In this document: positions 27,659 through 63,464 of the stretch, piece by piece
Layout of the letters: the number at the start of each line of letters is the position of its first letter
How positions within the stretch are numbered: position 1 is the stretch's first letter
Source: Pseudomonas wuhanensis
Lineage (GTDB): Bacteria; Pseudomonadota; Gammaproteobacteria; Pseudomonadales; Pseudomonadaceae
Direction of reading: 5' to 3'
Length of the DNA stretch: 64,000 nt
Assembly (NCBI RefSeq): GCF_030687395.1
Contig: NZ_CP117430.1
Span: forward strand, 930,001 to 994,000
Notes under the pieces: generated by a model
Database searches by the model: none
What the model saw: only the letters and a program-made list of their open reading frames with translations
What the model was told of the DNA's origin: nothing
Position numbers and translations under genes: made by a program

Positions 27659-27664
27659 AAAAAT

Positions 27665-29680: not shown

Positions 29681-29681
29681 G

Positions 29682-47640: not shown

Positions 47641-48206
47641 CAAAATCTGACGTTGGGATTGGTCTATAAATCCTGTTTAATTCAAGGGAAGCTGGTGTCA
47701 CCAGCTTCCTCGCCTTCGTGCGGACGATGTCGGTTGGAGACATCGAGGCGGGGATACGATTCTTCATGCCCTGTGAGAGGCGTTCGATACACACCCACTA
47801 CTGCGCTATGCGTACGTTATTCAGGCCCTATCAGTACACCAAATCAGGGCGAATTTTCAGCTTGGCATCACGCAGCTTGCGAAAGTTTTTGATGGTCAGA
47901 TCAGCGAGGTGATTGGAGGTCTTCACCCTTGTTTTACGGATGAAAACCTTTTCGAATTGATATGCGCAATAGGGCGTTACGTTAGACGAATATATCCGTA
48001 ATGCGCACACGCTTCTTCCAGAGTGCTCCTGCCATCGGCCACCACTCGGCGCCGTCGGCGTGGCCAGTTTATTTAACGTGTTGTTTGATGCACGCGTCAT
48101 CTAGCCATTACCTAAACCTTGTTGTCTTCTCTTCACCGAGTTAGTGGCAAGCTGCTACGATGCGGCCGGCAAAAGAAGCAGGCGATAGCCGCTGCAGGGA
48201 GGCGTT
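47641..48206. other. 566-bp gap with an inverted repeat and a gene remnant
   Basis: GGAAGCTGGTG/CACCAGCTTCC at 47687-47709 is a perfect 11-bp inverted repeat 47 bp after the metallo-hydrolase stop; it lacks a T-tract. A minus-strand ATPase remnant follows at 47831-47926. The last 100 bases hold the RBS GGGAGG of the next gene. No plus-strand gene is seen. Confidence 0.55.
47831..47926 (-). pseudogene. 5' remnant of an AAA/OLD-type ATPase gene
   Basis: From GTG 47926 the minus strand reads VKTSNHLADLTIKNFRKLRD, then AKLKIRPDLVY, and stops. LTIKNFRKLRDAKLKI is the typical first strand-turn of OLD and RecF-like ATPases, just before the P-loop, which is missing. I read it as the start of a gene cut off by rearrangement. 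The match is short. Confidence 0.4.
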
Positions 48207-49964
48207 ATGACTATTTCCATCCGTGACGTGGAAGGCGTGCTCCAAGCCCGCTTGCTCAGAAATCCATCTCTCGATGCGCTGAACCCGAACGACCAGTCGT
48301 ATCGCGCGCTTTTACTTCAGCCTTCCGGTCCAATATTGGCTGACAACACCCGCATCGGTCCGCTCGACCTTGCGTTCGCCGATAAGCAGGCTACGAATTT
48401 CCTTGAGCTGGCCTCAGAGAAAGGACACCACCTCGTTGTAACCCCGGAGTACTACCTCCCAATCGAGACTCTGGTGAAGTGTGTTCAGGGCCCCACATTC
48501 CCCGCTGTCGGAGCCCTTTGGGTGCTGGGTTGTGAAAGCATGACGCCAGCTCAACTCGAGAGGTTCGAAACCGACTGCAATGGCTACTGCGATGTCATCT
48601 TCGAGAAAGACACATCTGCGGCCATTCAGGGTATCTACTACGATCCCGTCGCCTTCTGCTTCGTAACGAAGGACGCTGATGGGAAGGACCGGCGCGTGGT
48701 CCTCTTGCAGTTCAAGACGATTTCCTCGAGGGATCTGCACTTTTTCGAAAACAAGAACCTTCGCTGCGGTACTGTCATCTATCAATTCAAGGGGGTGGAT
48801 GAAGAGCTCTCGCTCGCAACCATCATCTGCTCAGACTCCTTCAAGGTCTCACCCGACGAAACGCTTCGCAGGAAACTCTCACGCAACGCGACGCTGCTAC
48901 ACATTCAGCTGAATCCGAAGCCTAAGCACACCGGTTACATGCGCTATCGCGTCGACACGTTCAACAAAAGTAAGGACCTAAACAACTGCGACATCGTCTG
49001 CTTGAATTGGGCAGAGAACATGGTCCAGGTTGATGAGCCCGGCGGCAATAGCGAAGCATGGAAGAACGAGAGCGGGTCCGCCTGGTACATCTCGGAACAT
49101 CGCTGTTCATCTAACGATGATGAGGTTGAGAAAAACGAACAATGCGGTCTTTATTTTTCGCGTCACGTTAACCAGCGGCATGTGCTCCACTTTCACTTCG
49201 GCGCAGCTGCGTTTGAATTGACCGTCGCTAAGATTGTTCAACTGGGCCACCGCGTGCACGACAACCATCTCGGACCAAAGATGGATGTTCGGTACACCTG
49301 GCATGATGACCATCAGGCCTGGATGCCCAACGCAGAAAACCCTGACCCGGGCTTGTCAAATCTCTTCGCACTTTCGCTTGATGTGACGTCGGCGTTCTCA
49401 AGCCTGAAGACAGTGAATAGCCGACTACAGGTGGAGCGTGCAATTGCGCTTTCCTGCGGTCTCTCGAAGTGCAAGGAAACCTGGTTCAAGGCTGGCGAAC
49501 TTGACGCATGCAAACTGGGCGAGGACGAAGTTGTGCGACGCGTGACTCTCGCTCTGGACCGCGATGTAGCTGCGCGCAATGCCCGTGAAAACAGCATCAA
49601 GAAGGTTGCGGCTCTGAACAAAATCTTGGCCACGAAGAAGCTACCGCGTCAGATTCACGACCTCGGTGGCGGTGAAGCTCGCATCATGTGGCGACCAGAC
49701 TCACCGCATGTGAACGTCTTCAAAGATGGGAAGCAGCCGGCCTTGGTCGCTTATCTAGGAATGGATCCGAGCTCAGAGATGATTAAAAACGTGAGTGACG
49801 CTGCGTTTGAGTTGCTGCGCCGAGAGAACAACGATAACCACAAGCACCGCATCGCGGTCTGCTATCACACGATAGATGGGCAAGCCGAGTTCGCACCAAT
49901 TTCCAAACTCACTGACATCACCCATGGGGGCGGCAGCGCTACCTCCATTGCAGAGGCGGACTAA
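48207..49964 (+). CDS. Nitrilase-fold (carbon-nitrogen hydrolase-like) protein, partner of an SMC ATPase
   Basis: A 585-residue protein, RBS GGGAGG before ATG 48207. The N-terminal 330 residues follow the nitrilase plan: Glu81 (VVTPEYYLP), Lys170 (LLQFKTIS) and Cys208 (ATIICSDSF), with spacing suitable for the E-K-C triad. The C-terminal 250 residues are unassigned. The stop is directly followed by the ATG of the SMC gene (TAAATG), so they are co-translated. I infer a defence effector acting on a nucleotide, amide or protein target; this is not shown. Confidence 0.8.
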   Translation: MTISIRDVEGVLQARLLRNPSLDALNPNDQSYRALLLQPSGPILADNTRIGPLDLAFADKQATNFLELASEKGHHLVVTPEYYLPIETLVKCVQGPTFPAVGALWVLGCESMTPAQLERFETDCNGYCDVIFEKDTSAAIQGIYYDPVAFCFVTKDADGKDRRVVLLQFKTISSRDLHFFENKNLRCGTVIYQFKGVDEELSLATIICSDSFKVSPDETLRRKLSRNATLLHIQLNPKPKHTGYMRYRVDTFNKSKDLNNCDIVCLNWAENMVQVDEPGGNSEAWKNESGSAWYISEHRCSSNDDEVEKNEQCGLYFSRHVNQRHVLHFHFGAAAFELTVAKIVQLGHRVHDNHLGPKMDVRYTWHDDHQAWMPNAENPDPGLSNLFALSLDVTSAFSSLKTVNSRLQVERAIALSCGLSKCKETWFKAGELDACKLGEDEVVRRVTLALDRDVAARNARENSIKKVAALNKILATKKLPRQIHDLGGGEARIMWRPDSPHVNVFKDGKQPALVAYLGMDPSSEMIKNVSDAAFELLRRENNDNHKHRIAVCYHTIDGQAEFAPISKLTDITHGGGSATSIAEAD

Positions 49965-52900
49965 ATGTTGGAACTTCAGTCAGTTCGAGAGAAAGTCTTC
50001 GCACTGCTCAGTGACGTTCAGAATATCGATGATGCGGTGGTACGAGGCGAGCGCTGCCACGAAGGCAAGTGCTACGCCATCGCCTATGTGGATCTTGCCG
50101 ATAACGTGGTTGGTCGCGCTGGCGAACTATACGACTTTCAGGAGCGAATCCTGGGCGACGATTTCTTCGGCACGCCTGGCGACTTGCGATGGAACAAGTA
50201 CCTTTACATCGTTGCCGGCCCGAAATCGCTACGCCATGATGACTTTGAAAAAGCGAAGGCGACTATTGAGTCGGACAAAGAGTACGCACGCAAGCGCGTC
50301 GTCTCCGAAGAAGAGCTTGAAGCGTTGCTTGGCGCCGCCCAGTACTTCACACCAACCGACACTGGCAAGGACTTCAACGTCGTTGGCGAATGGGAAAAGC
50401 GCCTCGCCGCCGCAGATTTGGATGAATTGCTCGATCGACCTACACGAAAGGACGTTGTTGAGCGCATCGGCACCCGGTCAGCCAAACGCGTACCCGTCGC
50501 AGACAAGACCCTGACGCTAAATCCATCCGACGCCCTTCTTACTCAGAAATGGCTCGCATCCATCTCGATCGATCAGTTCCGTCCAGTTCACGACGGGAAG
50601 TCGTACACCTTTGGCCAGGTAACCCTCATCGTTGGAGCCAACGGTACTGGTAAGACATCGTTGCTTGAAGCTGTCGAATATTTCTACTGTGGTCATAACC
50701 GTAGGCAGGGGAACGCGGTCATTCCGAAAATCTCCGGCTCATTGGTTGGTAAGACTGAGGCGCTGGTAGCCTCGGCAGAGGCCGGTCGAATCAGAGCTCG
50801 CTGCTTCAGTTGGTATAATCGGGACGAACGACTTGCAAAGTCGATTCTGAGTGCATTCACTCGATACAACTTTCTCGATACAGATGCGGCATTCAGAATC
50901 TCGACAGAATTAGAACCATCAGAAATACCAAGTGATTTGAGCCGATTGCTTGTCGGTGCGGATGCCTCAATGATCTGGGACTATCTCGGCAAGATTTCGC
51001 CTGAGATCGAAACCGCCCATGAGCGTTCAATCATGCGAGTCGACGAAAGTCGGCAGAGGCTAGAGATTGCTCAGAAGGAGCTTGAGGACACTCAGAGTCG
51101 CCCCTCGGACGGCAAAGCTCTCACAGAGGCATTTCGCGTAGCCTTGGAAGGGCTTAATTGGAAAGCTCAAAAGGTAACGGCGCCGCTAGTCACAGAAGAA
51201 GAAGCAAATGGCCTCGCGGAGGCACTCGGCCATCTGAAATCTGTACTTTCGGCGGGTTCAGCCGTGGTGTCTATTGACGCGATTTCGACGCGCGGCAAAG
51301 AGATAAACCAGGCATTGGCGCTTGCTATTCCGCTCGAAGCGGATCGAACAAAATATGTGCAGGAAATGAATCGGCTTGCTAAACATGCAGCTGCCTGCGA
51401 AGAGGCTTGTGAAACCCTAGATCGCTGGCTGACCTACGTGAATAGTGGCTTCGCCATCGCCTATGCTCGTGGCAAGAAGGCCAATACAGCGGTAGAAATC
51501 GCCCAGGGCCGATTGGGCCTGTACGCGACAGGCGATATTCCCAAAGTACCTCAAGGGTATGCAGCCGAAACGCTGGAGTCTGCAATTCGCGACGCAACCT
51601 TGGATGTCCAGGACTGCATTGATCAAGTGATCAGTTTGGATAATCTGGCTGACAGCTTTGGAAAGGCAGCATCCGCTCGAGCGCTAGCTGCACGTCAACT
51701 ACGATCCGCTGCAGTGGCATCGTTCAACGCTGGCCATCCGGAAGACGATTGTCCCATTTGCCGGGCCAAATATTCACCCCAGAAGTTGGCCGATCTTGTT
51801 GAGCAAATCACACAAACATTAGAAGAGACCAACGAGCTCACAGAGGTCACTTCTAAACTTTCCGAAGCTCAGGAACAGCTCGATTTTTTTCAAGATAAAG
51901 TCCGCCTCATTGAGAACCTGCAGCGAATAGCAAGTGCCATTGACCTAGCACCAGATGCGCTTTGCTCTGAGGTTCCCGCCCGACTGGCAGAACTGCAATT
52001 CGAGTTGGCGAGTGCTGAGCAAGAACTTGCCTCCGCCAGAATTGACTGGAAGGAGCTAGCCAACTCAAAGTTGACGGCACGCGAGCACGACGACCTTCGG
52101 GACATTGTCACAACGCTTCTGCTCACGTCTGAAACAGAGTTCGATACGGTAGCTATTGATGAAGCACGAGCTTCGTTTCGCGAAGCCGCTGCTGCAGCTC
52201 ATAAACTTATAACTCAGAATTTCGAACTGCATAACTCCCTTGAAAAACAGCTTTCTGGTCTCAGTGCTGCTGCCACCGTCGAAGGTTGGCAAACACGAGC
52301 CCGACCCAATGCAGGTATAGAATCTCTAATAACTATGCAAGGTGAAATCGAATCGATTCAGACCCGAATTGATGGTTTACAAAGTTTTTTGGATATAGAT
52401 GACAGCGCAAACTTTGCTGATTTAAGTATCGGGATAATTGGCGCCACTCGGATCCATTCTGAAGCGATGGAGGCCGTCAAAATGGAAAACATGGCGTCTA
52501 GCAAAATTTCCACACTTGTCGAGCAGATTGAGCACCTGAACCGGCAGCTGAACGAAAACTTGGAAAAGGCGGAAAACTATCAGGTCGCCAAAGAAACTCT
52601 GGAGCTGCTTCGCAATGAGTGCTCTCTTGAACACGCAACGCAAGAATCGTTGAGCGCCATCAGCTCGCAGATAAATGAAATTTTCAGTCGCATCCATGCG
52701 CCGAACGAATATGAATATGTTGGCCAGGGAGAGGCACTCCTCCAGACATCGGGCTCACATGAGAAACGTACGCTGGAGCAAATAAGCACAGGGCAACGTG
52801 CAGCGTTTGCGCTCTCTGTATTTTTGTCGATGAATCGTAACGCAAGCAAGGCACCGCCGGTCCTTCTGATTGACGACCCGATCGCGCATATCGACGATTT

Positions 52901-53072
52901 AAACGCACTGTCCTTCCTAGACTATCTACGCGATTTGGCCGTGAACTCCAGTCGACAGATTTTTTTTGCTACAGCAGATACTCGTATCGCAGCGCTCTTT
53001 GCTCGGAAATTTAGCTTTCTTGGAGAATCGTTTCAGAGCATTCAACTAGAGCGCGGGGTGGATGGGGGCTAA
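49965..53072 (+). CDS. Rad50/SMC-like ATPase with zinc hook
   Basis: A 1035-residue ABC-type ATPase. An extra N-terminal region of about 190 residues (GRAGELYDFQERILGDDFFG, WNKYLYIVAGPKS) precedes the Walker A GANGTGKT at 224-231. Long coiled coils flank a Rad50-like hook Cys596-Pro-Ile-Cys599. The signature-like ISTGQRAAFALS lies near 940 and Walker B VLLIDDPIAHIDD near 965-980, so both head halves are present. It is coupled to the nitrilase gene and probably senses DNA ends or invading DNA. Comparable SMC subunits occur in Lamassu-type defence; the N-terminal region is unlike those I know. Confidence 0.88.
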   Translation: MLELQSVREKVFALLSDVQNIDDAVVRGERCHEGKCYAIAYVDLADNVVGRAGELYDFQERILGDDFFGTPGDLRWNKYLYIVAGPKSLRHDDFEKAKATIESDKEYARKRVVSEEELEALLGAAQYFTPTDTGKDFNVVGEWEKRLAAADLDELLDRPTRKDVVERIGTRSAKRVPVADKTLTLNPSDALLTQKWLASISIDQFRPVHDGKSYTFGQVTLIVGANGTGKTSLLEAVEYFYCGHNRRQGNAVIPKISGSLVGKTEALVASAEAGRIRARCFSWYNRDERLAKSILSAFTRYNFLDTDAAFRISTELEPSEIPSDLSRLLVGADASMIWDYLGKISPEIETAHERSIMRVDESRQRLEIAQKELEDTQSRPSDGKALTEAFRVALEGLNWKAQKVTAPLVTEEEANGLAEALGHLKSVLSAGSAVVSIDAISTRGKEINQALALAIPLEADRTKYVQEMNRLAKHAAACEEACETLDRWLTYVNSGFAIAYARGKKANTAVEIAQGRLGLYATGDIPKVPQGYAAETLESAIRDATLDVQDCIDQVISLDNLADSFGKAASARALAARQLRSAAVASFNAGHPEDDCPICRAKYSPQKLADLVEQITQTLEETNELTEVTSKLSEAQEQLDFFQDKVRLIENLQRIASAIDLAPDALCSEVPARLAELQFELASAEQELASARIDWKELANSKLTAREHDDLRDIVTTLLLTSETEFDTVAIDEARASFREAAAAAHKLITQNFELHNSLEKQLSGLSAAATVEGWQTRARPNAGIESLITMQGEIESIQTRIDGLQSFLDIDDSANFADLSIGIIGATRIHSEAMEAVKMENMASSKISTLVEQIEHLNRQLNENLEKAENYQVAKETLELLRNECSLEHATQESLSAISSQINEIFSRIHAPNEYEYVGQGEALLQTSGSHEKRTLEQISTGQRAAFALSVFLSMNRNASKAPPVLLIDDPIAHIDDLNALSFLDYLRDLAVNSSRQIFFATADTRIAALFARKFSFLGESFQSIQLERGVDGG

Positions 53073-53250
53073 GGATAGTGAGCGCAGCCAGAATCTCCTC
53101 ACCGCGGGCGGCGATGTCCAGTTATGGATACCATAGCCTTTAATGCAGTATGTACAGTTGATGCGGTGAGCCGAGTCGTTGATTTGAGCGAATAGGATTA
53201 ATTCAAGATGATGCCTATACCACTCAGTAGTGTCTATTTGATATCATCAG

Positions 53251-53284
53251 CCCCTCGTACTCTCAAGTGCTTAGTACGAGGGGG
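53251..53284. promoter_or_regulatory. Inverted repeat after the SMC gene
   Basis: CCCCTCGTACT pairs with AGTACGAGGGG around a 12-base loop. It is 180 bp after the SMC stop, without a T-tract. It may be a transcription stop or a protein-binding site. The rest of the 326-bp gap 53073-53398 shows no gene. Confidence 0.5.
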
Positions 53285-53398
53285 GAGGTCTGCACATTCA
53301 GGGGTGTGTCTCTGTAATAAGCAGCAGGCACGATGCGCCCTCCCTTAATAATATGTTGAAGCGGAATTTCACCTATTAGTAAGTTTAGGAGAGCAAAA

Positions 53399-53911
53399 AT
53401 TTTAAAATATCTTATTGCCCTGGTGCCTTCAATTCTTGTGTGCGGATGCGTAGCTCAAACGTCTGACAATTCCGGTCTGTCTAGTCGAGGAATTGGGAAG
53501 TGGCAGGCAGAGGTAGTCTGCAAGAAGATGGGAGTGGATACACGTGATACTATCATGTTCAAACTCAGCCCCGGCGAGCTTCCATATTCCCAGCACGGAC
53601 TTATGGTATTCCACAGTCGAGATGAAAGTGGTCGTAACCTTGGGTTTTCTACATATTTTGTTCTTGTTAAAACGACTCCGTTGACAGGTGGAATAGCAAT
53701 TGATGCAGATCACCGGATAGTTAAAAACGGCCCTGATGTAGATACTTTTTTTACAAAAATGGCTGGTGAGGATCAGCGGAAACGGGGAGAGTTCACCGGC
53801 CCTGACACTATGAAACTCAATATGTGTGGTCGTGTAGAAAAATTTTACCGAATTGCGAACTACACTCGACTTGATCAGCCGCCACCGCTAGAAAGAGTTG
53901 ATTATAATTAG
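53399..53911 (+). CDS. Predicted lipoprotein, possibly with an ATT start
   Basis: A 170-residue protein if translation begins at the ATT of 53399, which follows AGGAGAG with five bases between. This gives a complete lipoprotein signal (K-rich start, LIALVPSILVCGCVA) with the lipidated Cys near 16-18. A GTG at 53423 would truncate the signal. The mature part has no domain I recognise (WQAEVVCKKMGVDTRDTIMF, GPDTMKLNMCGRVEKFY). No canonical ATG is present upstream in frame. Confidence 0.6.
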   Translation: MLKYLIALVPSILVCGCVAQTSDNSGLSSRGIGKWQAEVVCKKMGVDTRDTIMFKLSPGELPYSQHGLMVFHSRDESGRNLGFSTYFVLVKTTPLTGGIAIDADHRIVKNGPDVDTFFTKMAGEDQRKRGEFTGPDTMKLNMCGRVEKFYRIANYTRLDQPPPLERVDYN

Positions 53912-54036
53912 CAGATAAGCCAGCGCTGCTATCGGACCTGCATTCACCCTCGATTCTTTTCGCTAGGTCTTGATCCTATACGGACCAATAAAAGGTCTTC
54001 ACGCCAACGCTCCATTTAGTAATATTATTAAGAGAT

Positions 54037-55002
54037 ATGATAAAAGTCGAACAGCAACTCGAGAGCATTCATCAGGAACTTCGTGGAAGTGTGCAGGACC
54101 TGACTCAGGAAGAGCAAAAATCGTTGAAGTACTATATTCGCGACATTCATCAGCGCTTAAGCGAATGGCTGAGCGTACAGGGGAATGAAAAAGACGAACG
54201 CAGTTATGAAATCAGTTGGGCTCTTGGCCTGGTCGGTACTGTCGGTGTCCTTCTGGCGATCACTCGATCCGCTGGCAGCGATATTGATTGGGTGCGCGAG
54301 CACACTTTGGCATTTAGGCTCTGGGCGGTAGTACTGTGCACCCTTTTCGTTGGGGTGTCATTGGAGCGCTCCGCGGTGGTGAGGTCCCTGTGGGGTTTTA
54401 CCATTACCAAGTTTTTGGTTTCGATTATTCTTTCCGGTGTGGTGCTCTACGCCCGAGGCAAAGCTGCGGGCTACATCAATGGAGTATTTCACATAGATGC
54501 TTCCGCGTTGCCCTTCACATTTGTGTTTACCACCGCACTGTTGGTGCTTAAGTTGTTGTTGCCGTTCGTACTTACTGTGGCATTGATTTTTTTACTGGTT
54601 CACGCTCTGATTGTAGCCGGCTGGTTGAAGGGTAAAGTTGATGGTAATACTGCTACTGCGGCCCCGCTTTTCTCGTTACTGTCCGCTTTTGTGTTCGGTG
54701 TAATTCTCTATTTCGGGTGGAGCTGGTCCGGTAATCAGATAGCCGACTCCCGGGTGCCGGAAAAAGTCTATTTGATGGCTCATACGCTGGACTTTAATTA
54801 CTCGCACGAATGCGCCAATGTGGCAGCGACTCGGCCGGTACTCTTCCTCGGACCTGCTCAGGAGTCCGTGCTGGTTGCCCCCGAAAAGCTGGCTGATTTC
54901 AGTTTTACCGATTTCTTTGAAGGGGGAGTGAAAGTACCGACTAGCTTCGTGCGTCAACGATGCGACTACAAACCGGCGTGGGCTGTGGATGAGTCGAATT
55001 AG
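54037..55002 (+). CDS. Multi-helix membrane protein of unknown function
   Basis: A 321-residue inner-membrane protein. An N-terminal soluble coil (KVEQQLESIHQELRGSVQDL) is followed by about five hydrophobic helices (starting SYEISWALGLVGTVGVLLAI, LWAVVLCTLFVGVSL, FLVSIILSGVVLYA, LLPFVLTVALIFLLVHALI and LFSLLSAFVFGVILYFGW) and a C-terminal soluble segment with Cys pair-like residues (SHECANV and RQRCDYK). I do not recognise it. It lies 125 bp after the lipoprotein gene. Confidence 0.72.
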   Translation: MIKVEQQLESIHQELRGSVQDLTQEEQKSLKYYIRDIHQRLSEWLSVQGNEKDERSYEISWALGLVGTVGVLLAITRSAGSDIDWVREHTLAFRLWAVVLCTLFVGVSLERSAVVRSLWGFTITKFLVSIILSGVVLYARGKAAGYINGVFHIDASALPFTFVFTTALLVLKLLLPFVLTVALIFLLVHALIVAGWLKGKVDGNTATAAPLFSLLSAFVFGVILYFGWSWSGNQIADSRVPEKVYLMAHTLDFNYSHECANVAATRPVLFLGPAQESVLVAPEKLADFSFTDFFEGGVKVPTSFVRQRCDYKPAWAVDESN

Positions 55003-55074
55003 GATTGTGCTGAGTCCGTTTGTTGTATCGGTCGTTGAGTCCACAGCGGCCGTTCGCTAGCCGTTGCGAATGTG

Positions 55075-55240
55075 TCACTCCGGCGTCATGAGCATCGCAA
55101 GCACCATGTTGATGAACTCCTCGTTCTTGCCGATTGTATCCAAGGCACCGCGTACGTTGGCTGTCACCTCCGTAGCCCCTAACTGGCCAAGCAATTGTCC
55201 GATCAGCCTATCATCGTCTCTGACACGTTCTGGCAAGATC
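55075..55240 (-). pseudogene. C-terminal gene remnant on the minus strand
   Basis: The minus strand reads ERVRDDDRLIGQLLGQLGAT, then EVTANVRGALDTIGKNEEFI and NMVLAMLMTPE, followed by a stop at 55075-55077. It has coding character and no start, and runs into the IS66-type remnant at 55247. It looks like the 3' end of a gene interrupted there. The family is not recognised. Confidence 0.45.
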
Positions 55241-55246
55241 GGCGCC

Positions 55247-55513
55247 ATGACTTCGCTGCCCGACCTCGATCAACTGACCCCCGAACAACTGCGCGCTCTG
55301 GCTGCACAGTTGTTTTTTCAGGTCGGCGCTATGGACAAGAAATCCCAGCACGACAAAACGCTCATCGAGGAACTCACCCACGAGATCACGCAGCTCAAAC
55401 GCTTTAAGTTCACCAAGCGTAGCGAGCAGATGAGCCTGGAGCAGGACAGTTTGCTCGATGATCTGATCGATACTGATATCACGGCCATCGAAGCTGAGCT
55501 GGAGTCATTGTAA
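55247..55513 (+). pseudogene. Truncated IS66 TnpC N-terminus
   Basis: ATG 55247 starts an 88-residue frame MTSLPDLDQLTPEQLRALAA, FFQVGAMDKKSQ, LKRFKFTKRSEQMSLEQDSL, DTDITAIEAELESL, then TAA. It matches the N-terminal helix of IS66 TnpC, including the copy at 43482-45029, but differs at many residues, so it came from another IS66 relative. The catalytic part is missing. Confidence 0.8.
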
Positions 55514-55855
55514 ACAGTTCCAGCATCGGCCCAGATATTAACTGATTACGTCTGGCCACAATCGGTATCGCCATAGTAGAGGTCTTCACAACCGAAGGAG
55601 AGTGGGAGGGATCCAGACGGTGTTCGTTGTCGCAGAAGCTTTGAATAGCGAATTGCTAATCTCTAGGCGCAAAACGCCGCCTTAATAAAGCTGCGAGGCT
55701 GTAGTACACACCGAGGAAAATCTCGACTTGCTTTAGCTCTGAGAGATAATTTTCTTATTTCGTTATGTGCTGATGACAACATTGCAATGAGCTAATCTCA
55801 GTTCCGTGCATAAAACGTGAATGAGCGTTTTTCTTAACTAAGCTGAGGGAATGAT

Positions 55856-56080
55856 ATGAAAAATATTACGAGTATCGATCACCGCAAAGTGATGCAGTCT
55901 GCCCAGACGCTAAAAGCCAATCCCCCACTCCCATCCGAGATCACCAAAGACCCGATTGCATTTCTTGAGGCACAAGGCATTACTGTTGGCGCGGACATCG
56001 AAGCGATGATCAAAGCCAAAGGTATGTTTCCTCTCGCGAAAGCGCCAAGACAAGCGGGCATATTACACATCGATATTTAG
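55856..56080 (+). CDS. RiPP precursor peptide, copy 1
   Basis: A 74-residue peptide; GAGG precedes ATG 55856 by eight bases. It has a helical leader (SIDHRKVMQSAQTLKA), a central block (SEITKDPIAFLEAQGITVGA) and a C-terminal tail KAPRQAGILHIDI. No Cys and no Ser or Thr in the last 40 residues except Thr43, so lanthipeptide or thioether chemistry is unlikely; C-methylation, epimerisation or carbon crosslinks by radical SAM enzymes fit better. It is followed by a near-copy and then by the modifying enzymes. Precursor role is inferred from size, duplication and context. Confidence 0.8.
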   Translation: MKNITSIDHRKVMQSAQTLKANPPLPSEITKDPIAFLEAQGITVGADIEAMIKAKGMFPLAKAPRQAGILHIDI

Positions 56081-56243
56081 TGGCACCCATAAATAAAAAC
56101 CGAGGGAAATCTCTGCTTGCTTTGGCTCTGAGAGAAATTTTCTTATTCTATTATGTGCTGGTGACAACATTTTAATGAGCTAAGATCAGTTCAATGCGCA
56201 ACACGTGGATGAGCGTTTTCTTTAACTAAACAGAGGGAATGAT

Positions 56244-56468
56244 ATGAATAATATTACGAGTATCGATCACAGCAAAGTGATGCAGGCTGCCCAAGCGCTA
56301 AAAGCCAAACCCCCACTCCCATCCGAGATCACCAAAGACCCGATTGCATTTCTTGAGGCACAAGGCATCACTGTTGACGCGGACATCGAAGCGATGATCA
56401 AAGCCAAAGGTGTGTTCCCCATCGCGAAAGCGCCAAGACAAGCGGGCATAGTACACATCGATATTTAG
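56244..56468 (+). CDS. RiPP precursor peptide, copy 2
   Basis: A 74-residue paralogue of copy 1 with nine substitutions (K2N, R10S, S15A, T18A, N22K, G45D, M57V, L60I, L70V). The C-terminal 12 residues differ only by Leu70 to Val, giving KAPRQAGIVHIDI. All are conservative in the presumed core. The RBS and upstream region are also copied. Both copies keep the same stop and tail, suggesting both make product. Confidence 0.8.
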   Translation: MNNITSIDHSKVMQAAQALKAKPPLPSEITKDPIAFLEAQGITVDADIEAMIKAKGVFPIAKAPRQAGIVHIDI

Positions 56469-56491
56469 TGGCACCTATATGTAGATCGGCG

Positions 56492-56542
56492 AAAAAACTG
56501 GCTGTTCTGAAGAGGTCCGTTTGTACAGGTCGGCCAGTTTTT
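56492..56542 (+). terminator. Inverted repeat (possible attenuator) between precursors and enzymes
   Basis: AAAAAACTGGC at 56492-56502 pairs with GCCAGTTTTT at 56533-56542 around a 30-base loop; the descending arm ends in a T-tract. Placement between precursor copy 2 and the first radical SAM gene suggests partial termination, giving more precursor than enzyme mRNA. Confidence 0.6.
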
Positions 56543-56568
56543 GCTTGTAACGAATACGGAGCAACGCC

Positions 56569-57564
56569 ATGGAAACGCTGCCCGCAGCTCTGGTCATCAA
56601 CGTTACACTTCAATGTCCCTTAAAGTGTGCTCATTGCTGTTATTCGTCCGATATGTTCAAGGCTGGTCATCTGTCATTTGAACAGATAGCGCTAGCCATT
56701 TCACAAGCTGCCGGCATCCAAGCGTTCCGGGCAGTCCACTTTGTCGGCGGCGACCCTTTGCTGCATCCCGACCTGCTAGCCGATGCAATCGCGCTAGCTG
56801 CCGGACTAGGACTTAGCACCGGTATCACAACCAGCGCTTTCTGGGCGAAGTCCCCGGGCCACGCTCAGAAGGTCGTCGACAAGCTATGCGATGCTGGATT
56901 GAGCGAAATAACTGTATCTTACGATGATGCCCATGCCGCTTTCCTAGGCCTGCATTACATCGCTAATGCGGTGGCTGCCGCAGTCCTGCGTTCTCTCAAG
57001 TTAAGAATCGCCGTAGTGGTCGAACCTGGCGCCGCGATCACCGCCGCGACGCTGCGCGCGCAATTAGGACTGCAAGAGGCGAGCGCCATTCAAATTTACG
57101 AAACGGCTGTGAACTCAACCGGCCGGGCCGCTGCCGTAGACGAAGTCCGCCTTCACACACGCACCGAGCATGCAGAGGTCTATCGGGGGGCCTGCCAGTC
57201 GGTGTTTCGGAACGTCCAAATCGATCCACAAGGTAACGTGATCCCCTGTTGCGGTGTCTTGCCTCACCACTCCTCAATGGTGGTTGGAAACCTAGTGGAT
57301 GATGGCTTGGAGATTGCGGTAGCGCGGGCCCAGCAAGACCCTTTATATCGTTGGATCAGCAAGGACGGGCCGGTGGCAATCCTGGCCGACATTACCGCTG
57401 CCGATACGGCGCCGATGCGCACCACGGATTTCGATGGTATCTGCACGGCTTGCGACCGCATGTTTTCCTCCCCTTTGTTGCTAAGACGGGCGCGACACAC
57501 GGCCGCCGCCAGGTGCGCCGAGGGCCAGTCGGAGAATGTCGTGTTGAAATGGGTGACAACATGA
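56569..57564 (+). CDS. Radical SAM enzyme with SPASM/twitch-like C-terminus (RiPP maturase)
   Basis: A 331-residue radical SAM protein, GGAGC before ATG 56569. The [4Fe-4S]-SAM cluster ligands are Cys16, Cys20 and Cys23 (CPLKCAHC), and GGDPLLHPDLL at 60-70 replaces the GGE SAM-binding motif. Further cysteines at 209, 227, 228, 292 and 295 (GACQ, IPCCG, ICTAC) suggest an auxiliary cluster as in SPASM or twitch enzymes. The stop overlaps the next start (ATGA). It is expected to modify the precursor tail; the reaction is unknown. Confidence 0.85.
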   Translation: METLPAALVINVTLQCPLKCAHCCYSSDMFKAGHLSFEQIALAISQAAGIQAFRAVHFVGGDPLLHPDLLADAIALAAGLGLSTGITTSAFWAKSPGHAQKVVDKLCDAGLSEITVSYDDAHAAFLGLHYIANAVAAAVLRSLKLRIAVVVEPGAAITAATLRAQLGLQEASAIQIYETAVNSTGRAAAVDEVRLHTRTEHAEVYRGACQSVFRNVQIDPQGNVIPCCGVLPHHSSMVVGNLVDDGLEIAVARAQQDPLYRWISKDGPVAILADITAADTAPMRTTDFDGICTACDRMFSSPLLLRRARHTAAARCAEGQSENVVLKWVTT

Positions 57565-59438
57565 CGACTGACGTTTTGCTAGTGTCGGCCCCGGTTATGT
57601 CGGTGCTGCGGCCTTCGGCCGCACTCGGGCTACTGCAGTCGGCGCTCACGGCCATTGGGGTACGCACCGAATCCCTCTACTTGAATCTGATGTTCGCCGA
57701 GATGATTGGTATTGACCTGAACGAACGCCTTGGCGAGACTTTGCCAAGCCATCTCCTCGCTGGCGAATGGCTATTCGAACAGCCAGCACCGGCCGTAAAT
57801 GCAAAAAATCGAGCCGTCTTCGAGGGACAACTCAACACGGCCTTAGAGCAACATAAGTTCGACGATCTAGAGGCCATCAAATCCAAGACGGCACCCGCAT
57901 TTATCCTGCAGGCAGCGCAAGCTATCCTCAGGCGCAAGCCACGCATCTTGGGTTTCACTACCATGTTCCAACAGACCATGGCATCGCTGGAGATCGCGGC
58001 TTCCGTCAAACGTGCTGCACCGGAAATCATCATTTGCTTCGGTGGCGCAAATTGCCACGGTCCGATGGGGGCCGTGCTGATCCAACATTACCCACAGATC
58101 GACTATGTATTTACAGGCGAGGCCGACGCATTATTCCCTGATTTCGTCAAAGCCTTGCTAGCCGGACGTTCGCCCCGCCGCACCCAAGGCTGGCTGGGAC
58201 GTATGTCGGGTACGCACCCGCTGTCCCAACCGGTCCGCGAACTCGATGACTTGCCGATCCCGGACTACAGCGACTACTTCAGCCAACTGGCCAGAATGTC
58301 TGAAGCACACCGGATACGCAGCAGCGTGCCGTTCGAATCCTCGCGAGGTTGCTGGTGGGGGCAAAAAAACCACTGTACTTTCTGTGGGCTCAATGCCACA
58401 AGCATGGTATTCAGAGAGAAAAGCGGGAACCGCGTACTGCGCGAACTGGGAGTTTTGGCGCGTGCATACGGCATCAAACGTTTTTCCGCATGCGACAATA
58501 TCCTGAGCATGGGGCACGTCGACCGCGTAATTGCCGAACTAGACGGCAACGTGCAGCAATACCGCTTTTTTTACGAAATCAAGTCAAACCTTGATGAAGC
58601 GAAGCTGCGCATACTTGGCAAGGCCGGTGTGGTGTGGATACAACCAGGCATTGAAAGCCTCTCTGACCCTGTACTCAAGTTGATGCGCAAAGGTGTCGAC
58701 CGCATGCTCAATCTGCGCCTGCTACGCAATTGCCGCGAATTTGGCATGTGCGCGATCTGGTCGATGCTGTACGGCTTTCCTGGGGAGGCCGCAGCGGATT
58801 TTGACGATGTGGCCCGCATCGTTCCAATGTTAGAGCATTTGCAGCCGCCAGTCGGATGCGGCCGGATCCGACTCGATCGTTTCAGCCCCAACTTCGAGCA
58901 AGCGGAGGCAATCGGTTTTACCGACGTACAGCCGGTAAGCTCATATGGCGCAATTTTCAACCTCCCTGCCGATGCGCTTTTTGGCTTGGCCTATTTCTTC
59001 GATGGCTATGCGCCACGGGCAGCCAGCGAATCCGACCTGATTCCCCTAAAACAAGCTATCGCGGCTTGGCGCAGTGCCTGGCTACCCGGGACTACTCCGC
59101 CTCGCCTGGTCGCGCTTCCATGCGAAGGCCGCTGCTTGATCGAAGATACCCGCCGGTGTGCCATCGAGCGCTTCTTTGTCGCTAGCGAACTCGAAACCGC
59201 CATCATCGGGCATTGCCGATCGGCGCGCGCGATCGCCAAATTCGACATCTTGACCGACAGGTGGAGCCCGAGCGAAATCGAAGCAGCTCTTGGCAACCTG
59301 CTCTACCGCAATTATCTGTTAACCGATCAGGACCGGGTGATTTCGCTGATAGTTACCAGCGGGAACGAGCTATTTAGCGATGAGGATCGGGCCGACCTGC
59401 CTTTTGGGTACGTTGCGTCAAGCAGCGTCCAGATATAA
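57561..59438 (+). CDS. B12-type radical SAM, bacteriocin-maturation C-methyltransferase family
   Basis: A 625-residue protein, start set by the ATGA overlap. N-terminal 190 residues resemble the cobalamin-binding domain (LLVSAPVMSVLRPSAALGLL, IICFGGANCHGPMGAVL, DYVFTGEADALFPDF). The radical SAM cluster is the rare Cys264-x7-Cys272-x2-Cys275 (ESSRGCWWGQKNHCTFCGLN), the hallmark of the RiPP maturation radical SAM C-methyltransferase family (TIGR03975). The C-terminal region holds the conserved IWSMLYGFPGE and VGCGRIRLDRFSPNF. It probably methylates unactivated carbon in the precursor. Confidence 0.9.
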   Translation: MTTDVLLVSAPVMSVLRPSAALGLLQSALTAIGVRTESLYLNLMFAEMIGIDLNERLGETLPSHLLAGEWLFEQPAPAVNAKNRAVFEGQLNTALEQHKFDDLEAIKSKTAPAFILQAAQAILRRKPRILGFTTMFQQTMASLEIAASVKRAAPEIIICFGGANCHGPMGAVLIQHYPQIDYVFTGEADALFPDFVKALLAGRSPRRTQGWLGRMSGTHPLSQPVRELDDLPIPDYSDYFSQLARMSEAHRIRSSVPFESSRGCWWGQKNHCTFCGLNATSMVFREKSGNRVLRELGVLARAYGIKRFSACDNILSMGHVDRVIAELDGNVQQYRFFYEIKSNLDEAKLRILGKAGVVWIQPGIESLSDPVLKLMRKGVDRMLNLRLLRNCREFGMCAIWSMLYGFPGEAAADFDDVARIVPMLEHLQPPVGCGRIRLDRFSPNFEQAEAIGFTDVQPVSSYGAIFNLPADALFGLAYFFDGYAPRAASESDLIPLKQAIAAWRSAWLPGTTPPRLVALPCEGRCLIEDTRRCAIERFFVASELETAIIGHCRSARAIAKFDILTDRWSPSEIEAALGNLLYRNYLLTDQDRVISLIVTSGNELFSDEDRADLPFGYVASSSVQI

Positions 59439-59450
59439 CAGGAGAACGCT

Positions 59451-60611
59451 ATGAGTGTCGAAGTGCGACCGCTTGGCGATAAATGCAATATCGGCTGTAC
59501 ATATTGCTATCAGGAAGGTACCCGTGCCAGTAGCACCGCTGGTAATCGTTATGAGATTTCGAAGATCATCGAAGTACTGAACGAACTCGATGAGCCGTTC
59601 ACGTTGTTTGGCGGCGAGATTATGCTGACCAAGCGACGCGATTTAGAGCACCTTCTGGAGTTCGGCCAGCGCCGCTATGGCCAGGTAGGCCTTCAAACGA
59701 ACGGCACCTTGGTCAAGGAACGCGATATCGACCTGTTCCTTGAACATAACGTAAAGGTAGGAGTCTCGATCGATGGCCCCGGCGAATTGAACGATGCGCG
59801 CTGGGCCGGCAGCCTTCGCGCGACCCGTCGCGCTACGGCGATGACTGAGGCGGTGATCGAAACCATGTGTCGGACAGGCGCGCCGCCGGGGGTCATCGTC
59901 ACGCTTCACCGTTTGAATGCGGTTGGTGAACGGCTCGCCCACCTCTGCGGCTGGTTGCAGTTTCTCGACACTTTGGGTGTAACGCGCGTGCGCCTACACC
60001 TGCTCGAAAACGATAATGCCGGGCCAGCCGAGGATCTGGTGCTGACTACGGAGCAGGCGCTGCTGGCCATGCGCCGCCTGCGCGCACTCGAACGGACGCT
60101 GGTATGCATGCGATTCGATTTGTTCCGCGAACTAGAGTCGATGCTTCTTGGGCAAGACGATGAAGCGTCCTGCGTGTTTCGGGCATGCGACCCCTATCTG
60201 ACCCGCGCCGTCATAGGTGTCGAAGGGGATGGCCGGCGATCCAATTGTGGCCGCACAAACAAGGATGGCATTGCATATACACCTGCCACAGTCAATGGCT
60301 ACGAACGCCAGCTCGGACTGTACGCAATGCCGCAGGAGGAAGGCGGATGCAAGGGTTGCCGGTTCTTTCTAATGTGCAAGGGAAACTGTCCGGGCACCGC
60401 GATTGACGGCGACTGGCGCCTTCGTTCCGTTGATTGTTTGGTGTGGTTCGGACTCTTCGAAGATACCGAAGCCCGTCTCCTGTCCGAAGGTAGGGCGGTA
60501 CTGAGCCAGTCGCCTCAGCGTACCGCAGTCGAAGCCATCATTGTCGAGGGTTGGCGGGATGGTCACGACCGGTTATTGCGCGAAGCCTGCGATCTGGTTG
60601 GCGGACTATGA
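59451..60611 (+). CDS. Radical SAM/SPASM peptide maturase
   Basis: A 386-residue protein, GGAG before ATG 59451, 12 bp after the B12 enzyme. Cluster ligands Cys12, Cys16 and Cys19 (CNIGCTYCYQ), GGE motif FTLFGGEIML, and a C-terminal SPASM set (RACDPY, SNCGRTN, GGCKGCRFFLMCKGNCPG, SVDC) for two auxiliary clusters. SPASM enzymes of this shape make thioether, carbon-carbon or other crosslinks on peptides. With no Cys in the precursors, a carbon-based crosslink or epimerisation is more likely here. The stop overlaps the next gene. Confidence 0.88.
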   Translation: MSVEVRPLGDKCNIGCTYCYQEGTRASSTAGNRYEISKIIEVLNELDEPFTLFGGEIMLTKRRDLEHLLEFGQRRYGQVGLQTNGTLVKERDIDLFLEHNVKVGVSIDGPGELNDARWAGSLRATRRATAMTEAVIETMCRTGAPPGVIVTLHRLNAVGERLAHLCGWLQFLDTLGVTRVRLHLLENDNAGPAEDLVLTTEQALLAMRRLRALERTLVCMRFDLFRELESMLLGQDDEASCVFRACDPYLTRAVIGVEGDGRRSNCGRTNKDGIAYTPATVNGYERQLGLYAMPQEEGGCKGCRFFLMCKGNCPGTAIDGDWRLRSVDCLVWFGLFEDTEARLLSEGRAVLSQSPQRTAVEAIIVEGWRDGHDRLLREACDLVGGL

Positions 60612-61939
60612 TGCTCGATGCCGTATCGCGGTCTTGGCCGAGTGCGGGATCCGGACCTGCGGATGGCGCCGCGCGCGCGCGCGGACGTCTTAGTTTCGCC
60701 GCATCGGAAGAAGGGGACCAATGGCGAAGCCAAATTCCAGGCATGGTCCACGCCTCCTTGGTCACCGATCTTGCCGACGTCAAGCACGGCGGGCTGGCAT
60801 GGATGCGCTTCTGGGCTCCATATCGCGCTCTTGCCGAAACGCTCGAATGGGTTCAGGAGATGAGCTTGAAGGCAACCGTGTGCGACTGCGCGTTCGATGA
60901 GGGCGCCCCCGTCTCTCCCGTGCTTGTCGCAGGCGAGGCGCTCGACCCACGCACCCGCATCACCTATGCATTGGAGGTGACGGGGCGCAATGCCGTATTT
61001 CCGCTTCACAGCGCTGCCAGCCCGGTGCCTCCATGTTGCGCCTTGGCCCGCGAATCTACGAGTGACCGGCTCCTGCTTAATGGCGGAAACGGTCCCTTAC
61101 ACGCATATGTAGCGCTCGCGCCGCTTGGCCTCACGCCACTGCGGCACGCACCGTGCTCACTCGACTGCCCTGCCACTGTCGAAATTGTGAACGCCTTTAT
61201 TGTGCGAGCGCTCGCCCTTGGCTTCAATGACGCGGCCCAGGCGTGGAAAACACTACAACACGTCCAGCCAAGTGCCACGCTGCGTGCAGGCCTAATGGAA
61301 GTAAAGATGCCGGGTTTACGCTTTGCTTACCGAACGGCACTGCACGAACGTAGCAATCGCATTGCCGTAACGATGCATAAACCCTGGATGCTATCGCCAG
61401 AGATCGACACCTTCATCCACACGGACCCTTCGTTCGCCAGTGAGTTTGCTCGCCGTTCGCGTTTCGCGACAATCCTGTGGGAACAAGAGGCGGTCATAAA
61501 GCGCGCACGAGGACCGATCGTCCACCTCGGCTGTGGCGATGGGCTGCTGTTGGATCTGCTAAAAATTGCCAAGCCGAACGCCGTGCTGCACGGAGTACAA
61601 AGCAATGCAGCGCCGGTCGAAGTCGGAGTATGCGTTCAGGACAATAGCGCGCCTGCCGTTCACGCAGAAAAGTGGGAAGTGGAGCTGAAAGCGATCATGG
61701 CTTCCGGGAAGAAACCCGATCTCCTTCTGTTTGACCCCATCCATCTGCTGGCGCTAGGGGCGGTCGAGCGCCAAATGCTTGTCTCCGCTATGCATGCATC
61801 AGCGGCCGCGGTCGTTGCCTACGCCACCGACGCAAGCTTAAAGCGCTATGGCGACCTCGCCGAGTTGGCTCGGGCGGCTGGAATAGGGCTGGTACAGGGG
61901 CGACGGCTTCGGGTGTCGGCGTTGTTAGCAGCTCCCTGA
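60608..61939 (+). CDS. Methyltransferase-like protein with unusual Cys-containing middle region
   Basis: A 443-residue protein; the start ATGATG overlaps the previous stop. The C-terminal third has a Rossmann-type SAM motif (IVHLGCGDGLLLDLL at about 305-320) and a motif-IV-like LLLFDPIHLL. The first 250 residues carry HAPCSLDCPATVEIVNAF near 180-200 and CCALARES, suggesting metal or substrate binding; I recall similar PCS-x-x-C segments in DUF483-type proteins. It is the last gene of the RiPP operon. Likely a second methylation or tailoring step; unproven. Confidence 0.7.
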   Translation: MMLDAVSRSWPSAGSGPADGAARARGRLSFAASEEGDQWRSQIPGMVHASLVTDLADVKHGGLAWMRFWAPYRALAETLEWVQEMSLKATVCDCAFDEGAPVSPVLVAGEALDPRTRITYALEVTGRNAVFPLHSAASPVPPCCALARESTSDRLLLNGGNGPLHAYVALAPLGLTPLRHAPCSLDCPATVEIVNAFIVRALALGFNDAAQAWKTLQHVQPSATLRAGLMEVKMPGLRFAYRTALHERSNRIAVTMHKPWMLSPEIDTFIHTDPSFASEFARRSRFATILWEQEAVIKRARGPIVHLGCGDGLLLDLLKIAKPNAVLHGVQSNAAPVEVGVCVQDNSAPAVHAEKWEVELKAIMASGKKPDLLLFDPIHLLALGAVERQMLVSAMHASAAAVVAYATDASLKRYGDLAELARAAGIGLVQGRRLRVSALLAAP

Positions 61940-61944
61940 TCACC

Positions 61945-62238
61945 TCATTTTGTAAGGGCGGAATTCGCATCGGTACACCATAGTGTTTGCTCAACATCCC
62001 ATGCATCGTCGAGCTGCGTGAAGAAAAACTCTTTATCGATAAGTTTTTGATCGCCGTGACCACCATACGCCATGCGATCAACCAGGCTAGCCGTGGTCGT
62101 GAAGCCAATTTTGTATAAAAGACCCTGTTGAGAGTTTAGCCGTACGTAATTGACATTAGCTGCAGGGTCACTAGGCCTGCGGAACCAGCGCTTGAATCTC
62201 GTATACAGTGATGCATGTAGCTTGGCCATTCCCTTCAC
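61945..62238 (-). CDS. GIY-YIG/T5orf172-like small protein
   Basis: A 97-residue minus-strand protein, convergent with the RiPP operon and only 5 bp from its end. VRLNSQQGLLYKIGFTTTAS, then LVDRMAYGGHGD, and FFTQLDDAWDVEQTL follow the GIY-YIG relative T5orf172 (YKIGxT...R...A...E). The C-terminus is short for the family, so it may be truncated. Nuclease activity cannot be judged. Confidence 0.6.
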   Translation of the reverse strand: MKGMAKLHASLYTRFKRWFRRPSDPAANVNYVRLNSQQGLLYKIGFTTTASLVDRMAYGGHGDQKLIDKEFFFTQLDDAWDVEQTLWCTDANSALTK

Positions 62239-62407
62239 AAATCCCGATAAATCCTCCGCTGGGACATCCTACAGTGGTGGCAATAAGCCGCTCACCTCAG
62301 CCTTGCATCTCCCCGGACACGTGAGACGGTAATTCCAGTTAGTGCTGCAGACCAGGAACTGCCGCACCTGCCCAGAGATCATGGCTTGTCTCACAAACGG
62401 AAAGGCT

Positions 62408-62872
62408 ATGGCAAAAATTCCTCCGAGTAAGCTTCCAAAAAAACGTGGCCGGTCTCGGTTAGAGACGCTGTTCGCTCGGTATGAAATACAGATCATAAGC
62501 TGGGATTTTAGCTGGTCGTTCTACCTATCTCGGCCTACGGACCGGTGGCAAGGGAAGAGCCACTTTAAGGAGATGGCCACCTTGACCTTGGTGGGGCGTG
62601 TTACCTCTCCAGAGGAATTCAAATATCCAGAAGCACTTCTGCGTTTAGTAGCCGATCCATGGCTGGATACCTTGGTAGAGCAACCAGCGGCCATCGGCTC
62701 CCTCCACATCAATGACAAACAGTTGACGGGTTATGTGTGTATTCCCAGCCATCAAATGCCCATGCTTGTGAACGCAGCAAATCGATTGTTATTTATCGAG
62801 CTCAATGGAACACCGTTGCGGTATCGCAAAGCTCTAATTAGAGATCTCCATTTGAGTACGGCCCCTGAGTAA
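62408..62872 (+). CDS. Hypothetical protein
   Basis: A 154-residue frame from ATG 62408 (AAAGG upstream); 62342 is an alternative. No motif recognised: SRLETLFARYEIQIISWDFS, KEMATLTLVGRVTSPEEFKY, HINDKQLTGYVCIPSHQMPM. The beta-rich pattern and steady composition make it a plausible real gene. No close neighbour suggests a role. Confidence 0.6.
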   Translation: MAKIPPSKLPKKRGRSRLETLFARYEIQIISWDFSWSFYLSRPTDRWQGKSHFKEMATLTLVGRVTSPEEFKYPEALLRLVADPWLDTLVEQPAAIGSLHINDKQLTGYVCIPSHQMPMLVNAANRLLFIELNGTPLRYRKALIRDLHLSTAPE

Positions 62873-63464
62873 CTGACTCACCCCCGAATCTGTTCCACCT
62901 ATCCAGGTCAATTACATCGCTGCGGTGATCATAGTGTTGGCGGATCGCCACCGTTGACCACTACGACTGTCGAGATGCCCTTTGGCGAGTCACTGAAGGG
63001 CATGCCCAGTTTTACTAACATGAGCAGTTGCCTTCTTTCACCATGGATGCGCTTTGCGATCTTCAGTCCGGCCGTTACCTCGTCATGGGAATGAAGAACG
63101 AAGAGGAGCGCGCCTGGAATTTTGATGACAAGCCGCAAGAGCGGGAGTTCGCGCCCGCGGCCATTAGGCAGTCCTCTAGTCCGACGACTCCCCAGGCCAA
63201 CCAAATATAGGAAGGTCTAGCGATGTCTAGCGAATTTTGCTAAATCTCACTAGATTCGCGCAAAAGTCGATCGCAGCCATGCGCGATACGCTGGCTACGT
63301 TGGAGGGTTGGATACTTCGTAGCTGAGGGACGGGGTTTGTTTGATCTCTCAGACTTCACGTAGGAACACGTTGTCTTGAACCAGAGCGCTTTTGACGGTT
63401 TTCACCTTGACCTGCGCTCAACCTCGCACCGACAAGGAGTAGCCATCTGGCTACACATGGGACT
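62873..63464. other. 592-bp stretch without an accepted gene
   Basis: A plus-strand 60-codon frame at 63028-63210 exists but has no RBS or recognised domain. The direct repeat at 63215 lies here. The presumed promoter of the toxin-antitoxin operon would be in 63,380-63,460, but no clear boxes are seen. Confidence 0.4.
63215..63233. repeat. Direct repeat GTCTAGCGA with nearby related sequences
   Basis: GTCTAGCGA occurs at 63215-63223 and 63225-63233; CTAGATTCGCGC at 63250-63261 resembles the second copy with its following bases. The clustering of CTAG-centred repeats could be a recombination or binding site. No adjacent integrase is in the window. Confidence 0.4.

Follow-up and report, generated by a model that had tools for sequence, protein, structure and literature searches.

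Cyclophanes joining residue i to residue i+2 have been reported in which C2 of His is bonded to C-beta of Ala or Arg, and in which Trp or Tyr is bonded to C-beta of Asp (PMC11002830). The characterised alpha-ketoglutarate-dependent HExxH (aKG-HExxH) enzyme ChlH is reported to hydroxylate Asp and His and to require a preinstalled cyclophane (PMC12636437). In the epimerase EpeE, Cys223 is the proposed H-atom donor (PMC8326336). PoyC is presented in a review as a C-beta-methylating enzyme with targets Ile3, Val5, 10 and 21, and a Cx7Cx2C motif is described there as unique to it (PMC11285071). The aminopyruvatide enzyme ApyD is reported to be a B12 radical S-adenosylmethionine (SAM) enzyme that contains a recognition element (RRE) for ribosomally synthesised and post-translationally modified peptides (RiPPs) (PMC11117315). 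Here we describe a gene cluster of Pseudomonas wuhanensis, located in a 64,000-nucleotide stretch (contig NZ_CP117430.1, positions 930,001 to 994,000; hereafter the window), for which an original prediction had proposed a RiPP pathway with two precursors and three radical SAM enzymes. That proposal is borne out by conserved gene order, correlated divergence, a conserved precursor leader and core, and a PqqD-like region in the second enzyme: a short precursor lies beside its modifying enzymes across genomes, and the locus is almost certainly a RiPP cluster. It represents a conserved, rare bacterial cassette that very probably yields a short, heavily modified peptide with His-x-Asp (H-x-D) at its end.

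The open reading frame (ORF) calls agree with the arrangement first proposed, two 74-residue precursors followed by four coupled genes on one strand, which we call E1 to E4 (Table 1). The E1/E2 and E3/E4 junctions are ATGA overlaps, 12 bases separate E2 from E3, and the tandem duplication comprises the precursor ORF together with about 150 bases of DNA upstream of it. Among 8000 candidates scored, 57 further E1 homologues were found at E up to 1e-10. An alignment of 36 E1 sequences, the window included, was used to scan one genome per species; 58 stretches fit the pattern and 20 loci were confirmed. At 17 of the 20 (L012-L028), E1, E2 and E3 follow a precursor in this order, and E4 comes next in 16 of them, the contig of L025 stopping about 560 bases past E3. 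These 17 cassettes belong to ten Bradyrhizobium, two Sphingomonas, two Tahibacter and one Paraburkholderia genome, and to one Caulobacterales and one Lysobacterales metagenome-assembled genome. The other three loci have E1-like and E2-like genes (L029 and L030) or an E1-like gene only (L031). Pairwise distances of the precursor and of E1, E2, E3 and E4 correlate with one another (r 0.87-0.98 over 8 to 13 loci).

The two window precursors are 88% identical to each other, and five residues (D32, L37, G41, H71 and D73) are invariant in 19 aligned precursors, the window pair and 17 from relatives. Both in the window and in its relatives the precursor ends in [I/V/L]-H-[I/V/L/F]-D plus one to three residues, the residue before the His being I or V in relatives and, in the window pair, L or V; examples are QAGILHIDI (window), QAGTIHIDIL (Bradyrhizobium), HAAIIHIDV (Paraburkholderia) and ASVVHVDV (Lysobacterales). 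With the window precursors as queries, BLAST picked up 19 ORFs across L012-L029; all but the ORF of L029 end in H-x-D, 18 in total. The aromatic-x-acceptor motif expected in a triceptide core is accordingly present in 18 of these 19 and in both window precursors. When six-frame ORFs of 40-130 residues were scanned for [IVLST]H[IVLF]D.{0,3}end, exactly two of the 402 window ORFs had the motif, and they were the two precursors. It occurs in 19 of 1937 ORFs of the 20 relative loci, all 19 lying a short way upstream of E1 on its strand, the second precursor of L023 being found through the scan itself; these rows are not independent, as 11 of the 20 loci are the ten Bradyrhizobium and their nearest kin.

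The ten Bradyrhizobium precursors are under purifying selection, with a ratio of nonsynonymous to synonymous differences (pN/pS) of 0.15. In the window pair, differences fall at 13 of 222 positions of the coding part and at 24 of 150 in the aligned DNA upstream (Fisher p 0.002); its own pN of 0.052 and pS of 0.081 rest on those 13 changes and are little informative. None of the precursors has a significant NCBIfam match and the window pair has none in Pfam (a hit at E 0.08 is at chance level), in keeping with the remark that their family was not recognised. The tail had been said to lack Cys, Ser and Thr, which is true of the window. For Cys it extends to the last 14 residues of all 19 precursors, and for Ser and Thr it fails in the 17 relatives, whose tails contain them at places that are not conserved. 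The conserved core Cys or Ser/Thr of sactipeptides, ranthipeptides and lanthipeptides is thus missing, and none of the 19 aligned precursors matches the NHLP or Nif11 leader models at E up to 1.

Table 1. Coordinates of the cassette in the window and of the haloarchaeal gene pairs
Feature	Position	Strand	Basis or remark
Precursor 1 upstream region	55711..55855	+	A copy precedes precursor 2 (about 56095-56243), differing at 24 of 150 aligned positions
Precursor 1, 74 aa	55856..56080	+	Core end QAGILHIDI; H71-I72-D73 at 56066-56074
Precursor 2, 74 aa	56244..56468	+	Core end QAGIVHIDI; H-I-D at 56454-56462
E1, EpeE/YydG-like radical SAM enzyme, probable peptide epimerase	56569..57564	+	PCC motif 57244-57252 (Cys227-Cys228)
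E2, B12-type radical SAM C-methyltransferase	57561..59438	+	TIGR03975 match; Cx7Cx2C at 58350-58385
PqqD/RRE-like winged-helix region of E2, residues 537-586	59169..59318	+	hhalign
E3, radical SAM/SPASM enzyme, probable crosslinking enzyme	59451..60611	+	CX3CX2C and CX14GX4C..CX2CX5CX3C..C cysteines
E4, N-terminal Cys-rich domain (P.CC ... H.PC...C) and degenerate-looking methyltransferase-like domain	60608..61939	+	Alignment, profiles
Haloarchaeal plasmid pairs, E3-like SPASM enzyme and Cys-rich protein	L034:7001-9206, L035:6980-9498		No recognisable precursor nearby

E1 had been described as a radical SAM/SPASM-like enzyme. Profile and structure matches refine that description to an enzyme like the epimerase EpeE: the profile of the 36 E1 sequences matches EpeE/YydG at 1e-31 over the full enzyme length, and the next solved relative, PqqE, at 5e-9 over the N-terminal part only. 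Cys209, 227, 228, 292 and 295 of E1 are present in all 36 aligned rows, and the CxxxCxxC cysteines in all 34 rows that reach that region. For the EpeE numbering we used an offset of 25 between the 344-residue chain and the native protein, which we take to be 319 residues long. The variant chain 8ai3 has PCA instead of PCC, which makes Cys223 the second Cys of the motif and the counterpart of E1 Cys228; a second variant, at chain position 235, corresponds to residue 210. The hydrogen-donor Cys that follows an auxiliary-cluster Cys in epipeptide epimerases therefore has its equivalent in Cys228 in 36 of 36 sequences, and epimerisation by E1 is likely.

For E2, the assignment to the B12-type radical SAM C-methyltransferases of the bacteriocin-maturation family is upheld by a TIGR03975 match well above the cut-off (587.8 bits against 281.85), and all 13 aligned rows keep its Cx7Cx2C motif. 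Compared with PqqD by hhalign at two settings, residues 537-586 gave probabilities of 54% and 90% (E 1.8e-5 and 1.8e-6) for a segment that was picked by eye, with 15 of the 21 PqqD matches used. Six control profiles (the N-termini of E2 and E4, the middle of E4, whole E4, E1 and E3) gave at most 0.1%. C-methylation by E2 is very likely.

E3 carries CX3CX2C and eight further cysteines, invariant in 11 of 11 sequences, that fully fit the SPASM pattern CX9-15GX4C..CX2CX5CX3C..C. Its best NCBIfam models, DynA, AmcB and AnSME, each match every one of the 11 members with E of at most 1e-10 (best E values 3.1e-18, 3e-18 and 2.3e-17, respectively), with scores far below the cut-offs. The nearest solved structures are AnSME (1e-12) and ChlB (6.5e-8). 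We propose a His-Asp cyclophane as the product of E3 because its H-x-D substrate fits the reported i to i+2 pattern; this crosslink has close to even odds. Loci without E3 bear on the pairing of the enzyme with the motif: at L029 (Palleronia) and at L071, where genes like E1 and E2 are present, the stretch examined contains neither an E3 gene nor an ORF of at least 25 residues ending in H-x-D. At L029 (928-4248), a distantly related precursor (E 1.8e-4) with a Val/Ala-rich tail precedes an S8 peptidase; the resemblance of this precursor to NHLP-clan models is weak (3e-4, 20.7 bits against a cut-off of 40). At L071 (6318-9507), a 262-residue ORF lies upstream of the E1-like and E2-like genes. 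L030 likewise has no H-x-D end, but its contig stops after E2. In a separate search for AmcB among 398 genomes of the phylum, one locus below the cut-off was found (L060); it was rejected as a close parallel, its precursor having Asn-Phe repeats.

The fourth protein, E4, had been predicted to be methyltransferase-like. This holds for its relatives by profile, PF08242 being found in 10 of 12 E4 members at E up to 0.1, and does not extend to the window protein itself, which is not among the ten and for which neither Pfam nor NCBIfam gave a significant match (one chance-level Pfam hit, E 0.11). The methyltransferase part is visible by profile only (structure 3jwi, 9e-6). On visual inspection, the window protein and its nearest relative, P0004, have lost the acidic residue that follows strand beta-2, so methyltransferase activity is doubtful. 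In the N-terminal part, P140, C142, C143, H179, C182 and C186 are invariant in 12 rows (P.CC, H.PC...C). A likeness of this motif to DUF483 found no Pfam support and was dropped.

Plasmid matches to E3 over 80% of its length come from two records only, of Halorussus and Halomicrococcus. In both, the product of the gene directly behind the E3-like gene is similar to the first 270 residues of E4 (9e-13 and 5e-18), whereas 1000 shuffled copies gave 0.38 at best, and a tblastn search of 72,556 plasmids with the Halomicrococcus Cys-rich protein returned the same two records only. Since this pair occurs without a methyltransferase, it supports a partner role of the Cys-rich domain beside E3.

An aKG-HExxH gene lies directly 3' of E4 in 13 of the 17 relatives. 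Three of the hydroxylases were scanned and belong to TIGR04267 (70-90 bits, cut-off 40), and the remaining ones match these by tblastn. No such gene was found in the window or at L023, L025 (where the contig ends), L026 and L027, and a search of the window's whole genome at E up to 0.01 gave no TIGR04267 protein either. Hydroxylation of Asp and His of the ChlH type would fit an H-x-D core. In nine Bradyrhizobium loci, the hydroxylase is followed by another B12 radical SAM protein and by a divergent major facilitator superfamily (MFS) exporter; their families were assigned in L012 only, as DUF4070 type (L012:16493-18226) and EmrB-like (L012:18231-19667). No flanking gene beyond the cassette and hydroxylase is widely common to the relatives, and, among the flanking genes that were identified, TonB receptor, M16/S8 peptidase and MFS transporter genes were not counted as pathway parts, being confined to single loci or to Bradyrhizobium.

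The distribution of the cassette family is sporadic. Searching 5.8 billion proteins with the precursors recovered no others than the two of the window, and a search of 194 genomes gave a convincing match in the own genome alone, with three weak, chance-like matches otherwise (E 0.03-0.10). Of 390 genomes of the order, 6 have an E2 match at 1e-60; apart from its own, these are only 30-36% identical. At 1e-50, E3 was found in 2 of 369 genomes of the class, the second match being a 168-residue ORF near a contig end in genome G535. E1 at 1e-25 was found in 6 of 398 genomes of the phylum, five of them 24-29% identical to the window enzyme. Viral contigs yielded no E1 relatives; plasmids yielded no match for the E4 protein or the cluster DNA and, with E1, merely distant SPASM enzymes of at most 31% identity.

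Taken together, these observations suggest the following pathway, to which we assign a probability of about one half and every reaction of which is drawn from gene content, conservation, motifs and pairing. The conserved D...L...G part of the leader would probably be held by the PqqD-like region of E2. E1 would invert at least one aliphatic residue near the C-terminus, the C-alpha radical being quenched by Cys228, and E2 would methylate unactivated carbons, most likely C-beta of Ile or Val. E3, aided by the Cys-rich domain of E4, would link the invariant His to the invariant Asp at +2, most likely from His C2 to Asp C-beta, which would give a three-residue cyclophane. In most relatives the aKG-HExxH enzyme would afterwards hydroxylate the His or Asp. 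The step order, leader removal, export and biological role belong to the model in the same conditional sense, and antimicrobial, signalling and metal-binding roles of the product are alike possible. A bolder reading, possible but less likely than not, is a RiPP class with a C-terminal His-x-Asp cyclophane flanked by D-configured and C-beta-methylated aliphatic residues, built by three radical SAM enzymes of which E3 would form a two-component system with a previously unnamed Cys-rich partner domain common to bacteria and haloarchaea.

Several results weigh against this model. E1 matches TIGR04078 (YydG) at E 3.7e-24 and 85.8 bits, short of the cut-off of 300 for the epipeptide epimerase family, and the equivalent of EpeE Asp210 is not retained in it. 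In E2, the Pfam B12 domain PF02310 is found at 2.4e-6 and 27.8 bits, below the gathering threshold of 32.1. E3 reaches at most 60 bits against cut-offs of 425-450 for DynA, AmcB and YhhB. In a tree of 21 rows, including 7 of the 11 E3 sequences, E3 forms one group with the two haloarchaeal proteins (support 92/99, not enough for the tool's star) and stands separate from the other SPASM enzymes (GrrM with an AmcB-like enzyme, XyeB and AnSME); neither the tree nor the NCBIfam ranking is decisive for its placement. As tree and model scores both put E3 outside the named families, we do not file it in a known cyclophane-forming family. The support that loci without E3 lend to the pairing of E3 with H-x-D is thin, if in the expected direction, with two loci only and no precursor identified at L071. 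The cluster holds no gene recognisable as one for immunity, export or a peptidase; the original observation that it contains no transporter or protease was confirmed for the eight proteins scanned at 54037-62872 (NCBIfam, Pfam). Finally, no ORF ending in H-x-D lies within 15 kb of the haloarchaeal E3-like genes, so E3-like enzymes can have other substrates, which argues against H-x-D as their sole possible target.

In a rival reading that is quite possible, the locus is a RiPP cluster and E3 forms a different crosslink or oxidation, for example a dynobactin-like bond between a nitrogen of His and a beta-carbon, or a cyclopropane on an aliphatic residue, with H-x-D retained for enzyme recognition or metal binding. 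E3 is phylogenetically separate, DynA is as near to it as any named family, and its haloarchaeal counterparts lack H-x-D precursors. The C-beta(Tyr)-N(His) link reported for dynobactin shows varied chemistry in related enzymes (PMC11002830), and TvgB is reported to make cyclopropylglycine (PMC9062424). What speaks for the His-Asp crosslink instead is that H-x-D is conserved along with a hydroxylase of a type that acts on His and Asp, in 13 of the 17 relatives. If the product were a small cofactor or metal-binding factor derived from a peptide, as for pyrroloquinoline quinone (PQQ) or mycofactocin, the core would be expected to be near-invariant and no exporter would be needed; this reading would agree with the retention of a short C-terminal H-x-D across several proteobacterial orders and with flanks that share no gene widely beyond the cassette and hydroxylase. 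Against it stand the variation of the tail and of the residues around H-x-D, the duplicated precursors of the window, L023 and L024, and a sporadic occurrence unlike that of a housekeeping cofactor, and we regard it as improbable.

A decaying island cassette without a working RiPP pathway in this genome, with a degenerate E4 and a lost hydroxylase, is likewise improbable. The apparent loss of the acid after strand beta-2 of E4, the lack of a TIGR04267 protein genome-wide and lower-GC surroundings (0.49-0.52) with transposition genes would agree with decay. The radical SAM cysteines are all intact, however, the reading frames are open and coupled, the precursor is better conserved than its upstream DNA, and the GC content of the enzyme genes (0.56-0.61) is near that of the adjoining core genome (0.59). 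We retain the pathway of epimerisation, C-methylation and His-Asp crosslinking, at the odds given above.

The lower-GC region lies downstream of tRNA genes and holds Tn7-like transposition genes and defence systems as well as the cluster, whose precursor region has a GC content of 0.45. At 18838-31013 of the window, a tRNA run that includes tRNA-Pro TGG twice (18923 and 19176) is followed by a fall in GC from 0.59 to about 0.50 and by the Tn7-like module. This module comprises TniQ, TnsD/TniQ, a DUF1780 putative nuclease and a weak AAA match below the cut-off. It is followed by a type II CBASS-like operon (31684-36374, PADLOC) with JAB, E1-E2, CD-NTase and SAVED-HNH proteins, and by a Lamassu-like pair (46288-53072) of LmuA-like (7e-13) and LmuB-like (2e-29) proteins, between which is a 585-residue protein without Pfam or PADLOC match. 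Directly 5' of the precursors, a fragment at 55064-55513 resembles by eye the N-terminus of a transposase at 43482-45029, presumably of the IS66 type. An Rfam scan of 53000-63000 gave no match.

A description of the cassette was not found in the open-access literature searched by title and abstract start, a scope that excludes the main triceptide survey and MIBiG. The cassette constitutes a genuine, conserved family of RiPPs in the Pseudomonadota, with a combination of three radical enzymes that was not found described in that literature. As a place to look for new peptide chemistry it is a good candidate. If the model is true, one short tail receives epimerisation, C-methylation and a C-C crosslink from three radical SAM enzymes of one operon, which would make the cassette a compact system for studying substrate sharing among such enzymes, and the Cys-rich partner domain would offer a new way to track down related clusters. 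Alternative sources are available in the 17 relatives, of which ten belong to Bradyrhizobium.

Set beside known systems, the cassette appears to work like a triceptide pathway joined by an epipeptide-type epimerase and a PoyC-type methylase, with family membership shown for E2 only (TIGR03975). As in the triceptide pathways (XncB, OscB/GrrM, HaaB, YhhB, ChlB), a SPASM enzyme stands beside a precursor with aromatic-x-acceptor residues, in most relatives with an HExxH hydroxylase as companion; it differs from them in that E3 is outside the named families, H-x-D is single and C-terminal, and epimerase-like and C-methylase genes and a Cys-rich partner domain are added. With the epipeptides (EpeX/EpeE, formerly YydF/YydG) it shares an E1 that matches EpeE over its full length and keeps the hydrogen-donor Cys, whereas E1 scores below the family cut-off and the precursors match no family. 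E2 resembles the polytheonamide-type C-methyltransferases in its TIGR03975 score above the cut-off and its Cx7Cx2C motif, but the precursors have no proteusin leader match and E2 is accompanied by two SPASM-type enzymes. The aminopyruvatide (apy) pathway also combines an RRE-bearing B12 radical SAM enzyme, a methyltransferase and a conserved C-terminal Asp; unlike that pathway, the scanned cluster genes include no MNIO and no P450, the conserved Asp of the cassette is not the last residue, and the likeness of E4 to ApyS is only weak (2.7e-5, in one relative).

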